Part shown: positions 11,901 to 17,262 of the stretch, piece by piece | Position numbering within the stretch: the stretch's first letter is position 1 | How the letters are laid out: every line of letters starts with the position of its first letter | Made by a program: the position numbers and the translations under genes | NCBI GenBank assembly: GCA_030750865.1 | Contig: JASMHE010000008.1 | Coordinates: 124,001 to 188,000 of the forward strand | From: Alphaproteobacteria bacterium | GTDB lineage: Bacteria > Pseudomonadota > Alphaproteobacteria > Micavibrionales > Micavibrionaceae | Reading direction: 5' to 3' | DNA: 64,000 nucleotides | The notes under the pieces: generated by a model | Database searches by the model: none | Told to the model about the DNA's origin: nothing | Seen by the model: the letters and a program-made list of their open reading frames with translations, nothing else

Positions 11901-12599
11901 ATGCATACATTACAAGGTGGTGCGGGGCTTCTTCTTTTCACTTCGGGACTGATCGGCATATATGGCGGCCATTTGCTGACGATGGAGGCTGTCGGACTCA
12001 TTTTGACCGGCGGTGTGAATGCGGGGCGCAATGCGTGGCAGTATAAACGTTTGCATGACGCGGATAATTTGCATGAACAGAACAAAGCCGAAGTGACGAA
12101 TAATCTTGTGTCGGCATCCACCAATTTACCGCAAATGATTCTGACAGGCTCACCAGCTGCGGCAATGGCATCACTGGGATATACGGTGCGGGCTGTTAAA
12201 AACCGTATCTTATATAAACAAGGGCAGGAGCATAAAATACGCCTGTCCAAAGTGGCCGATATGTATGATTCCGGATCATTCAGAGAAGAGCTTTTGGCGC
12301 CGCCGAAGCGGACAGGGCTGAGCCGTATTTTCCACGAAGTTGCCGATATCGCACTGGATCGGGCGCCTGCGCTGATCTTTCTCGGACGCGGGGCATCGCA
12401 GATGATCGAAGGTGTGATTCGATCTGATTACGTGATGCTTGCGGCCGGTATTGCGTTGCAGACGGCGGCCTTTGCCATGTGGATTGCCGACCGGAAGGCG
12501 CGTGCGGAGACAGGCGCTTATATGAAAAAACGTACAGAAAAACTACGGAACAAGTTCGAAGAAGACGACATGCCTGACGACCCGTCAGGGCCGTCATAA
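11901..12599 (+). CDS. Unrecognised membrane protein
   Basis: I do not recognise this protein of 232 residues or somewhat more. Hydrophobic stretches lie near residues 8-38, 75-95, 150-168 and 175-196, and the C terminus is charged (RTEKLRNKFEEDD). The reading frame is open upstream of ATG 11901 to a TAG at about 11823 and encodes plausible protein (NLTQDFNKLSSKKQRLA), but there is no ATG, GTG or TTG in it. A GTG with a good ribosome site at 11839 is in a different frame. Either ATG 11901 is the start, a rare codon is used, or a single-base frameshift separates the two. Confidence 0.65.
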   Translation: MHTLQGGAGLLLFTSGLIGIYGGHLLTMEAVGLILTGGVNAGRNAWQYKRLHDADNLHEQNKAEVTNNLVSASTNLPQMILTGSPAAAMASLGYTVRAVKNRILYKQGQEHKIRLSKVADMYDSGSFREELLAPPKRTGLSRIFHEVADIALDRAPALIFLGRGASQMIEGVIRSDYVMLAAGIALQTAAFAMWIADRKARAETGAYMKKRTEKLRNKFEEDDMPDDPSGPS

Positions 12600-12674: not shown

Positions 12675-14129
12675 TTAACCGTTAAGTTTCTCTTTCAGGA
12701 TTTCATTCACAGCGGCCGGATTGGCTTTGCCTTGTGATTTTTTCATCACTTGTCCGACGAAGAAACCGAACAATTTGTCCTTGCCGCCTTTGTAAGCCGC
12801 AACATTATCCGGATTTTCGGCGATGACTTCGTCAATCAGCGCTTCAATCGCGCCGGTATCCGTGACTTGTTTCAGTCCTTTTTCTTCGACAATGTCCGCC
12901 GGATTTTTGCCCGTTTCCATCATATCGGCAAAAACATCTTTTGCGATTTTTCCGGAAATGGTTTTATCTTCGATCAAGCTGACAAGCTCGCCTAGCTGTT
13001 GTGCTTTTACGGGCGATTCCGTCAATGTCAGACCGGCTTTGTTCAATGCGCCGAGCAGTTCATTTAACAGCCAGTTTGCTGTCAATTTTGCATCGCGGTC
13101 TTTTGCGGCTGTTTCGAAATATTCGACACGGTCTTTTTCCGCGATCAGGACACTGGCGTCATAATGGCTCAGACCGTATTCATCGACGAAACGGTGTTTG
13201 ATATCGTCCGGCAGTTCCGGCAATGTTTTGCGGATGTCTTCAATCCAGTCATTGGCCACTTCCAGTGGCAATAAGTCCGGATCAGGGAAGTAGCGATAGT
13301 CATGCGCTTCTTCTTTGGAGCGCAGCGGCCGTGTTTCCATCTTGTTCGGGTCCCACAGACGTGTTTCCTGATCGACCGTTCCGCCGTCTTCGATAAGCTC
13401 GATCTGGCGGCGGGCTTCATATTCAATACATTGATGCACGGCGCGCAATGAGTTCACATTCTTGATTTCACAGCGCGTGCCGTATTCGTCACCGGGTTTG
13501 CGGACCGAAATATTGACGTCTGCGCGCATGGATCCTTCTTCCATGTTCCCGTCACATGTGCCCAAGTAACGCACGATCATGCGCAGTTTTGACAGATAGG
13601 CCGTGGCTTCTTCCGGGCTGCGGATGTCAGGCTCGGATACAATTTCCATCAGCGCACAACCGGAGCGGTTCAAATCAACAAAGGATTTTGTCGGATGTTG
13701 GTCGTGCATGGATTTACCGGCATCTTGCTCCATATGCAGGCGTGTAATGCCGATCTTTTTGACTTCACCGTCGTCCAAATCGATTTCGATGATTCCTTCA
13801 CCGACAATAGGGTGTGCGAATTGCGAAATCTGGTAGCCTTGCGGCAAATCGGCGTAGAAGTAGTTCTTGCGCTCGAAAACAGAGTAATTGTTGATTTTGG
13901 CATTCAGGCCAAGTCCTGTACGCACGGCTTGTTCAACACAATGTTCGTTCAAAACAGGCAACATGCCGGGCATGGCTGCGTCCACCAGACTGACATTGTG
14001 GTTTTGTTCTGCGCCGAATTTGGCCGATGATCCGGAAAAAAGTTTGGAATTTGCAATGATCTGGGCATGAACCTCCATACCGATCACAAGTTCCCATGCA
14101 CCTGTTTCACCTTGAATTGTATATGCCAT
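12675..14129 (-). CDS. gatB: Asp-tRNA(Asn)/Glu-tRNA(Gln) amidotransferase subunit B
   Basis: A 484-residue GatB, the kinase and tRNA-binding subunit of the enzyme that turns misacylated Glu-tRNA(Gln) or Asp-tRNA(Asn) into the correct species. The start [13 protein letters not shown] is diagnostic, followed by [12 protein letters not shown] and [14 protein letters not shown], and the C-terminal helical YqeY-like domain ending in [13 protein letters not shown]. Full length. It is the last gene of the minus-strand unit gatC-gatA-two Cys-rich proteins-gatB; the gap to the upstream gene is 49 bases. Confidence 0.97.
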
Positions 14130-14178: not shown

Positions 14179-14844
14179 CTAATTCTTTTTCTCGCTATAG
14201 GCCGTGTAGCATGATTCTAACAGCGTTTCTTTTTTGTTGCGGTAAGGCATGAGGCGATCCAGCATTTTCAGCAGGTCGCGGTGATAGCGCTGTGTTTCAT
14301 CAAGTAAAATAGGGGCCAGCATTGTATAGGCTTCCTGATCAATATAAATTTCCATCTGGCTGGCATAGCATAGGCACATGCTGTCTTTATCGTCTCCGTT
14401 CATACGCGATAATCTGGGATCGAGATAGCAGCTTGTATAAAGCTTATCGCGCGCTGTGATCGATAGGCACGGCGTATGCACTTCGGCCAGCATTTCACGT
14501 TCTGTGATGGTTTCTTCCGGCTCAGGTTGTGACGTATCGAAAAAACGGCTGCCGATTTTGCTTTCGTCGGCGCGTTTTTGCTCCAGTGCGGACATGTGTG
14601 CATCCATGCATGCGCAATATTCATAGTTGGTGTCTTCTTCCAGACCTGGTTCAGGCATGGAAAGACAAAGATCAAAGAACGACATCTCTTCCGCTGCGTC
14701 CTGCTCGTTTTCTTCTTCGGCAAAGTTCAGAGATTGTGCATGGCTGTTTTTCACAGGCCATATCACAGCAATCATGACAAACAGGGCTGCAGTCAAATAC
14801 ATGCAGCGGCGTGCTGAAGAAAATGGAGGCAGGGACATCATCAT
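14179..14844 (-). CDS. Secreted eight-cysteine protein, copy 2
   Basis: I do not recognise the family. 221 residues with an N-terminal hydrophobic segment ending SHA|Q, a likely signal peptide with a periplasmic mature form. The mature part has eight Cys in the pattern C-x16-CxC-x46-PC-x12-C-x17-CxC-x52-C. The upstream neighbour has the same scaffold with nearly the same spacing, so the two are paralogs. Within each protein the pattern C...CxC...C occurs twice, suggesting an older internal duplication. An additional Cys lies in the signal region. The start overlaps the upstream stop (TAATG), so the pair is coupled. Disulfides or metal binding are both possible. Confidence 0.75.
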   Translation of the reverse strand: MMMSLPPFSSARRCMYLTAALFVMIAVIWPVKNSHAQSLNFAEEENEQDAAEEMSFFDLCLSMPEPGLEEDTNYEYCACMDAHMSALEQKRADESKIGSRFFDTSQPEPEETITEREMLAEVHTPCLSITARDKLYTSCYLDPRLSRMNGDDKDSMCLCYASQMEIYIDQEAYTMLAPILLDETQRYHRDLLKMLDRLMPYRNKKETLLESCYTAYSEKKN

Positions 14845-15404
14845 TACGGTGCTGGCTCCCCTTGTATGCAGGCAAGCGCCGTGCGTTTTTCATGCTGAAT
14901 AAATTTCGGATGATTAACAATCGGTCCCATTGGGTCTGTAATGTTCGGATCGTTCTTTAAAATGTCTGACAGATATTTGCGGGCGCTGCTGGCTGTGTAG
15001 TCTGCCATGCGGTTCGCAAGACATTCGCAGATGTCTTTTTGGACGTTATATTCATTTTCGATGCATCGTTTGAAAATAAGATCGCGGACCGGAAATTCCA
15101 TACAGGGGGCATAAACGTTAAGCAGCATCTTGTTGATGGCCTTGCGCGCAGGATCGCTGTCACCCTGCATCATCACCATGTCCTCGACGTAAAAGTCACT
15201 TTGCATTTTCATGGCGGTGCATTTGCAAAAGATGTCTTGTGTCTCACCTGAAATATTCGGATCTCTGGTAGATGTGCAGTTCTGGTAATAGCTATAGGCT
15301 TGTTCCGGTGAAATCGCCGTCTGTGCCGACGCGGATACCGGTGCGAACGCCAGAAGCGCTGTTACCAAAAGGATGCTACGAATAAGGTGAGAGGAATATG
15401 CCAT
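14844..15404 (-). CDS. Secreted eight-cysteine protein, copy 1
   Basis: I do not recognise the family. 186 residues: a clear signal peptide (hydrophobic LLVTALLAFAPV, cleavage about ASA|Q) and a mature domain with eight Cys spaced C-x16-CxC-x38-PC-x12-C-x11-CxC-x50-C, nearly the spacing of the next gene. Sequence identity outside the Cys appears low by eye. The start codon lies three bases after the gatA stop and the stop overlaps the next start, so both Cys-rich genes are placed tightly inside the gat operon. A role with the amidotransferase is unlikely because they are exported; shared expression is the safer reading. Confidence 0.75.
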   Translation of the reverse strand: MAYSSHLIRSILLVTALLAFAPVSASAQTAISPEQAYSYYQNCTSTRDPNISGETQDIFCKCTAMKMQSDFYVEDMVMMQGDSDPARKAINKMLLNVYAPCMEFPVRDLIFKRCIENEYNVQKDICECLANRMADYTASSARKYLSDILKNDPNITDPMGPIVNHPKFIQHEKRTALACIQGEPAP

Positions 15405-15407
15405 ATA

Positions 15408-16901
15408 TTATGCTGCTTTCTGTGTGCGGATTGCAGGGAGCGCGGTGAAATTCGCCGCTTTTTCAATGTGCTGTCCGACTTTCAGGATTGTGGCTTCGTC
15501 CCAGCTTTTGCCGACAAGTTGCAGCCCCAATGGCAGGCCGTTTTTGCTGAGCCCGGCTGGAATGGATAGTCCCGGCAGCCCGGCCAGATTGATCGATACG
15601 GTGTACACATCGTTCAGATACATGGTCAGCGGGTCTTCTTCATTTTCGCCGATAGCGAATGCCTCGGATGGCGCTGTCGGTGTCAGAATGACATCACATT
15701 GTTCATATGCATTGGTGAAATCCTGTGCGATCAGGCGACGGATTTTCTGTGCCTTGACGTAGTAAGCGTCATAGTAGCCTGCGGAAAGAACATACGTGCC
15801 GATCATGATGCGGCGTTTTACTTCGTCGCCAAAGCCTTCGGCGCGTGTTTTTTCGTACATATCAATCAGATTGTCGCCATCATCGCAAACGCGCAGTCCG
15901 TAACGCACGCCGTCATAGCGCGCAAGGTTCGATGATGCTTCGGCTGGGGCGATAATATAATATGCGGGCAGGGCGTATTTCGTATGTGGCAATGAAATAT
16001 CGACAATTTCCGCGCCGGCGTCTTTCAGCCACGCAATGCCTTGTTCCCACAATTTATCGATTTCTTCGGACATGCCTTCCATGCGGTATTCTTTCGGGAT
16101 GCCGATGCGCAGGCCTTTGATATCGTCGGTCAGTCCGGCCGTGAAATCAGGAACGTCTTTCGGGGCTGACGTGCTGTCTTTTGGGTCGTGTCCTGCCATT
16201 GATTTCAGCATCAGGGCGCAATCCTCGATCGTGCGGGCCATTGGTCCTGCTTGGTCGAGTGAGGAGGCGAATGCAACAACGCCCCAGCGTGAACAGCGGC
16301 CATATGTCGGTTTGATGCCTGTAATGCCGCAGAAGCTGGCCGGTTGACGGATAGAGCCGCCCGTGTCTGTGCCTGTTGCACCCATTGCAATGCGTGCCGC
16401 AACGGCAGAGGCTGATCCGCCGGAGGAGCCGCCCGGAACCAGATTGGCATCGGGACGGTTTTTGTTTTTCCACGGATTGATGACATCACCGAAATAGCTG
16501 GTTGTGTTTGATGACCCCATCGCGAATTCATCAAGGCTGGTTTTGCCGAGCATGACGGCCCCGTCACGCAGCAAGTTGCCGGAAACGGTGGATTCATATG
16601 TCGGGACAAAGCCTTCCAGAATATGACTGGACGCGGTTGTTTGCACGCCGTCTGTACAGAACAGGTCTTTGATTGCAAGCGGAATGCCGTCCAGAATACC
16701 GGCTTTGCCTTCGCTGCGGCGTTTGTCTGATTGCTGTGCTTGTTCCAGTGCGCGTTCCGGTGTTTCGGTTACATATGCATTAAGGTGTTTTGCATCTGCC
16801 ATCGCATCAATATGCGCCTGTGTCAGTTCCACAGACGTAAAGTCTTTGTTTTCCAAGCCGTTCAGGGCTTCTGTGATGGTAAGATGTGTCAAGTCTGTCA
16901 T
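15408..16901 (-). CDS. gatA: Asp-tRNA(Asn)/Glu-tRNA(Gln) amidotransferase subunit A
   Basis: A 497-residue amidase-signature enzyme that releases ammonia from glutamine for the GatCAB complex. The Ser-cisSer-Lys triad can be placed: Lys in IAIKDLF near residue 78, GGSSGGSA near 154 and [16 protein letters not shown] near 178. The N terminus [10 protein letters not shown] and internal [12 protein letters not shown] are typical of GatA rather than of other amidases. It follows gatC by 70 bases and precedes the first Cys-rich gene by three. Confidence 0.97.
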
Positions 16902-16971: not shown

Positions 16972-17262
16972 TTATTCAACAACCTTCGGCACAACGTAAA
17001 ACCCTTCCAGTGTTTCGGGCGCGTTGGCAAGAATGTCGTCCTGACAATCGCCGTCTGTTTGTAAGTCTGTGCGCTGTGGCAATGTGATTTCCGCCGAGCT
17101 TGGTAGGGGCTCGACGTTATCTGTATCAACTTCACCGAGCTGTTCGACCCATGTGAGGATACCGTTTAGTTCTGGTGCCAGTTTTTCGGCTTCTTCGTCT
17201 GTGACGCGAATGCGTGAGAGTCGTGCGACTTTTTTGACGGTTTCAATATCAATTGCTGACAT
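16972..17262 (-). CDS. gatC: Asp-tRNA(Asn)/Glu-tRNA(Gln) amidotransferase subunit C
   Basis: A 96-residue GatC, the small subunit that wraps between GatA and GatB. It shows the expected VKKVARLSRIRVTDEEAE helix and the extended WVEQLGEVDTDNVEPL belt, then the acidic LRxD-like segment replaced by LPQRTD. First gene of the unit, with a candidate promoter 46 bases upstream. Confidence 0.95.
   Translation of the reverse strand: MSAIDIETVKKVARLSRIRVTDEEAEKLAPELNGILTWVEQLGEVDTDNVEPLPSSAEITLPQRTDLQTDGDCQDDILANAPETLEGFYVVPKVVE

Follow-up and report, generated by a model that had tools for sequence, protein, structure and literature searches.

Mitochondrial twin CX9C proteins have helices cross-linked by disulfides and little else conserved, and the Csp copper storage proteins are helical and exported, with many cysteines, more than in the proteins described here, lining one four-helix bundle. 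A further described system is the LprI type, exemplified by ScwA of Salmonella. ScwA resides in the periplasm, influences cell-wall enzymes and depends on DsbA, which introduces its two disulfides, for stability; its cysteines (C30, C100, C237 and C259) include no CxC (PMC7933661).

We analysed a window of 64,000 nucleotides from an alphaproteobacterium of the family Micavibrionaceae, in which two adjacent open reading frames (ORFs), orf186 and orf221, lie between genes that we take to be gatA and gatB; these names, and that of gatC, were assigned from the sequence (Table 1). The initial annotation had described a pair of eight-cysteine proteins at this position, with a three-base gap at one end and an overlapping stop and start between them, and this was borne out: the gap between gatA and orf186 is 3 bases, orf186 and orf221 overlap by 1 base (TAATG), and the spacing from orf221 to gatB is 49 bases. 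Both ORFs begin with a hydrophobic leader and an A-x-A-like site, which by eye agrees with the signal peptides proposed for them. Between positions 12500 and 17600 neither promoter-like sites (3 found against 5.7 expected) nor terminator-like sites (9 against 7.7) rose above chance, a result that speaks neither for nor against a single transcript. The genes orf186 and orf221 are probably co-expressed with gat, presumably by co-transcription.

Table 1. Positions of the eight-cysteine genes, their parts and the neighbouring gat genes in the window.
Feature	Position	Strand	Basis
gatC, start of the gat gene set	16972..17262	-	ORF; match in L032
gatA, upstream neighbour	15408..16901	-	ORF, matched again at related loci
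orf186, exported twin-module eight-cysteine protein (predicted), copy 1	14844..15404	-	186 aa ORF, cysteine gaps, profile match, helical model
orf186 leader peptide, residues 1-27	15324..15404	-	By eye: hydrophobic run, then A-x-A, then Q
orf186 module 1, approx. residues 31-104, C43/C60/C62/C101	15093..15314	-	Cysteine gaps and profile-profile test
orf186 module 2, approx. residues 104-182, C114/C126/C128/C179	14859..15095	-	Cysteine gaps and profile-profile test
orf221, exported twin-module eight-cysteine protein (predicted), copy 2	14179..14844	-	221 aa ORF, cysteine gaps, profile match, helical model
orf221 leader peptide, residues 1-36, contains one extra Cys	14737..14844	-	By eye
orf221 module 1, approx. 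residues 48-129, C60/C77/C79/C126	14458..14703	-	Cysteine gaps
orf221 module 2, approx. residues 129-216, C139/C157/C159/C212	14197..14460	-	Cysteine gaps
gatB, downstream neighbour	12675..14129	-	ORF; served as search query

The proteins of the gat locus, exported and helical by prediction and with conserved cysteines, resemble in this the LprI domain family (PF07007) and ScwA, and differ in having two CxC each, whereas ScwA has none. We regard the LprI type as the nearest described analogue in manner of working, not in membership. Membership itself was rejected: none of the 40 gat-locus members scanned matched PF07007 at E up to 1, and an LprI search of the window's own genome matched two places, neither of them at the gat locus. 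This genome does contain a genuine PF07007 match (E 5e-16), in a 402-residue open frame (L210, G000:C3:18427-18693 (-)). The twin CX9C proteins differ in their spacing, CX9C as against CxC with x9-22 and x38/x50 here, and were not among the matches in the profile scan of 40 members; nor did the profile scans of the gat-locus family return any match to Csp.

The cysteine gaps are 16,1,38,12,11,1,50 in orf186 and 16,1,46,12,17,1,52 in orf221, with a proline directly before the fourth cysteine in both, and the scaffold first proposed for the pair, C-x16-CxC-x(38/46)-PC-x12-C-x(11/17)-CxC-x(50/52)-C, is thus exact in each. Their supposed paralogy also held, with a BLASTP match between them (E 8e-6 in a two-sequence comparison, 0.002 in a genome search) and a place for both within one profile family; scaffold, leader (by eye) and profile match coincide in both window ORFs. 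Among 123 distinct homologues at gat loci, all eight cysteines are kept in 121 when aligned to the profile, a count that still leans towards cysteines because the profile was built from a 40-member alignment picked by a cysteine regex (for the same reason the 40/40 count of that first alignment is circular). The two remaining homologues are cut at a contig end in one case and contain masked bases in the other, and the second copy of locus L014, missed by the regex owing to start choice, was picked up by the profile. The fourth and fifth cysteines are separated by 12 residues in 121 of 121; 99 of these have 16 residues in gap 1 and 85 have 50 in gap 7, and none has an extra cysteine between the first and the last. 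Since 121 of the 123 keep eight cysteines and the fourth gap never varies among those 121, the scaffold is kept beyond chance. Around it the sequence is loose: mean column identity in the alignment of 40 sequences is 18%, and the sole columns conserved above 75% apart from the cysteines are one of Ala and two of Pro. The residue inside CxC is free to vary, CxxC occurs anywhere in only 3 of the 123 homologues, the alignment contains no conserved His, and the three columns with a majority of Met also hold many Leu or Ile.

A protein search at E <= 0.01 found matches in 31 of 58 genomes (31/37 of the same family, 0/21 of others), and the 40-member profile matched 93 of 142 genomes of the order, comprising 93 of the 104 from the same family and none of the 38 from other families, 29 of which the kinship-ordered list leaves unnamed. 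In G002, which is one of the 93, the match is at a second locus and not at gat. The gat-locus family is carried by 92 of the 104 genomes of the same family, as one copy in 61 loci and two in 31; this family is probably Micavibrionaceae, to which one named locus, that of Micavibrio sp. UBA2137 (L032), points. The initial annotation had asked whether relatives also adjoin gatA and gatB, and across these 92 genomes they do: 110 of the 123 distinct proteins are flanked on the same strand by gatA on the upstream side and gatB on the downstream side, the other 13 have only one gat flank within the stretch examined, and none lacks both. In 81 of 89 loci the start of the first ORF, taken as the first possible one, which leans short, lies -20 to +41 bases from the stop of gatA.

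Twelve genomes of the same family are without the gene at gat. In five of them gatA lies directly beside gatB (11-46 bases), G002 has a gap of 259 bases without a gene remnant, G027 has no gatA upstream of gatB within the stretch examined, and in the last five no gatB was found, which makes them uninformative. In 18 genomes from the order's other families gatA adjoins gatB (up to 60 bases) in eight, unrelated inserts separate them in six, no gatA lies upstream in the stretch in three and there is no gatB match in one; all gap sizes were measured from aligned ends. G062 is without the gat-locus gene although its genus-mate G035 has it, and the simplest account is that the gene was gained in Micavibrionaceae and later lost in some genomes. 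Because five genomes of the family have gatA beside gatB and no such gene, the eight-cysteine gene is dispensable, and on the same ground a functional tie to GatCAB was set aside; co-transcription with gat implies no link to tRNA amidation. The locus is a clear case of an exported gene long kept inside a translation operon without an evident functional relation to it. In L009, L012, L013 and L026, inserted genes for membrane proteins that by eye look EamA-like stand between the eight-cysteine gene and gatB, which indicates that the gatA-gatB junction repeatedly takes in unrelated genes.

A tree of the 123 members was built with FastTree and midpoint-rooted; some of its supports are low. It separates the clade of second copies from the window's group from that of the upstream copies in another group, and it places the origin of a third tandem pair (L020, L157 and L159) elsewhere. 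By these positions tandem doubling at gat occurred at least twice, and probably a third time. The window's genome also encodes a third, distant eight-cysteine protein (contig C12, L134:4801-5463 (-)), found weakly (E 0.3 and 2). This protein and its relatives, drawn from 11 of 13 weak profile places plus the place in the own genome, make up a second subfamily of ten loci with gaps of x(10-11), x1, x(27-31), x13, x(13-17), x1 and x(30-32), and eight of the ten share neighbours recognised by eye as an acyl-CoA dehydrogenase, a SapC-like protein and a coiled-coil DNA-binding protein. Two of the 12 places, L135 and L138, have eight cysteines in another spacing and did not join the cluster.

The view that these proteins belong to no named family withstood the searches of Pfam, NCBIfam, PHROGs, PADLOC and PDB sequences. 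The first four gave scattered matches only and assigned no family: the best E in a curated-profile scan of 40 members was 0.0039, nearly all matches coming from one member, another curated-profile scan reached 0.0029, no match in either scan passed a cut-off where one was shown, PHROGs gave only E 0.35 and 0.39, and PADLOC gave no match. PDB sequence profiles returned short matches to designed helical proteins (full-sequence E 0.05-0.25), and none for the single module; a tblastn of orf186 against plasmids was also without a match. We found no description of the eight-cysteine family of the gat locus in the open-access literature searched, and these proteins are an uncatalogued family, not a new kind of system.

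Structure prediction, which the initial annotation had called for, gave helical models for both mature proteins. The best AlphaFold2 models have a pLDDT of 89.6 and a pTM of 0.81 for orf186 (159 residues) and 80.6 and 0.71 for orf221 (185 residues), from four-row alignments with which the five models span pLDDT 89.6-64.5 and 80.6-64.1, respectively. In the orf186 model the first and last cysteines of each module sit towards the ends of its two outer helices, the last one in the final helix, and the CxC lies in a helix between these, the one next after the first cysteine. Against the PDB orf186 had no significant match (Foldseek best E 1.0, VIA best Z 5.6), nor did it in BFVD, and orf221 had none in a structure library searched with VIA-align (best Z 5.4). 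Partial matches to insect odorant-binding proteins and prenyl synthases, all at Z < 6, were taken as common helical arrangements and discarded. The absence of a structural match does not alone make the fold new.

On balance we favour, with fair confidence, the reading that these are twin-module helical envelope proteins oxidised by DsbA and stapled by disulfides, not heme proteins and probably not enzymes, and probably co-expressed with gat. Disulfide stapling is preferred because the number of cysteines is invariant and even, there are no further internal cysteines and no conserved His, and genes for DsbA and DsbB are present; the own genome has one DsbB match and three DSBA-family matches over the cut-off. 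The cysteine pattern resembles that of disulfide staples and neither a heme site nor a metal site of mixed Cys and His, although an all-Cys metal site is conceivable. The initial annotation had offered disulfide cages or metal (copper or heme) handling, and of these guesses the disulfides are favoured by the cysteine invariance and the DsbA/DsbB genes, heme is rejected, with the attachment motif CxxCH in 0 of 123 homologues, and copper draws no support from any conserved non-cysteine residue. A metal buffer or chaperone whose CxC pairs and outer cysteines bind periplasmic Cu(I) or Zn(II) would suit proteins that each have eight invariant cysteines with two CxC motifs among them, and helical cysteine-rich proteins can store copper, as the Csp family does. 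We nevertheless consider it unlikely, given the lack of a conserved His, the Leu and Ile in the majority-Met columns, the tendency of thiols to oxidise where DsbA and DsbB are present, neighbours that are gatA and gatB where metal genes would be expected, and profile scans that matched no metal-protein family; copper handling in particular is unsupported by the sequences. CxC is also a redox motif in known proteins, some of them CxC oxidoreductases, and the two CxC of each protein are kept in 121/121. Even so, that one CxC per module serves as a catalytic or shuttle disulfide seems very improbable: none of the eight cysteines is more invariant than the others, the position inside CxC is free to vary, and the searches matched neither a family nor a fold of thioredoxin-like type.

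The named Micavibrio species are predators, and an envelope-exposed factor that meets prey, host or phage, with a surface that diverges under selection around a core held by disulfides, would agree with the leader peptides, with the low identity around a fixed cysteine scaffold and with the repeated tandem duplication (at least twice). Single-module relatives in many other Pseudomonadota, and the five genomes of the same family without the gene at gat, argue against such a role, which we likewise hold to be improbable. According to the preferred reading of a disulfide-stapled envelope protein, Sec would export orf186 and orf221, and DsbA would then form four disulfides from the eight cysteines. 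Each module would hold two of these, and each disulfide would staple one of the module's outer helices to its CxC helix. The staples would hold the fold and leave the remaining sequence free to drift, and the product would be soluble, located in the periplasm or facing the envelope, and would serve in binding or as a scaffold. Such a binding or scaffold role in the envelope is the most likely one, as a guess by exclusion, metal buffering and redox less so. The doubled protein would have become fixed at its place between the two gat genes early in the history of Micavibrionaceae, then duplicated in tandem at least twice, and co-transcription with gat would supply steady expression.

Each protein had been suggested to consist of two C...CxC...C modules, and profile comparison confirmed it. 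Module 1 and module 2 aligned in hhalign with a probability of 91.1 and a score of 32.6 over 34 columns, covering only the columns around the C and CxC, with the fourth cysteine outside. That score was reached by 0/100 shuffles with the cysteine columns fixed (mean 13.0, maximum 22.4) and by 0/100 full shuffles (maximum 16.3). In a search of the class with the family profile (E <= 0.01) 15 of 385 genomes matched, four of them from the same family, and the other 11 all had a single C...CxC...C stretch; most of the proteins concerned have a leader and measure 86-133 aa. Ten of those 11 went into a single-module profile, which, with the own genome included, found matches in 46 of 398 phylum genomes (36 of the 338 good ones), where about four chance matches are expected at E <= 0.01 per genome; the C...CxC...C pattern was seen in 27 of the 29 phylum loci opened. 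Like the gat-locus family these proteins have a leader, the spacing C-x(about 12-23)-CxC-x(about 12-45)-C and a helix-type sequence, but they have one module instead of two and no gat context in the stretches examined. No Pfam family was found for the 15 outside single-module proteins tested (eight plus seven) and no NCBIfam family for seven, and the neighbours of ten single-module loci, inspected by eye, included no common partner gene. The twin-module protein looks like a doubled form of the single-module protein of other Pseudomonadota, from which it may have originated.

What began as a two-gene oddity thus becomes a definable family, comprising 123 gat-locus members, another subfamily at a different locus and single-module relatives in other Pseudomonadota, no part of which was placed by the curated libraries searched. 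We see an even chance that C...CxC...C is an extracytoplasmic module of Pseudomonadota, helical and with two disulfides, that occurs in 1-3 copies per protein, may represent a new fold and an envelope binding scaffold, and has been kept in its doubled form in the gat operon of most Micavibrionaceae. Understanding a simple member with one module could account for many 'hypothetical proteins'. L108:1471-1956 (-), from a class other than that of the window's genome, encodes two near-identical modules in tandem, a doubling apparently independent of that at gat. In L144:4271-5161 (-), an open frame of 297 residues, three C...CxC...C modules can be made out by eye. In another alphaproteobacterial family a single-module gene (L093:1438-1830 (-)) directly follows adk/secY-like genes and precedes that of ribosomal protein S11, again within a translation-related operon, and at L109:1-1068 (-) a single-module gene is divergent to a threonyl-tRNA synthetase-like gene, the neighbours at both loci having been identified by eye.
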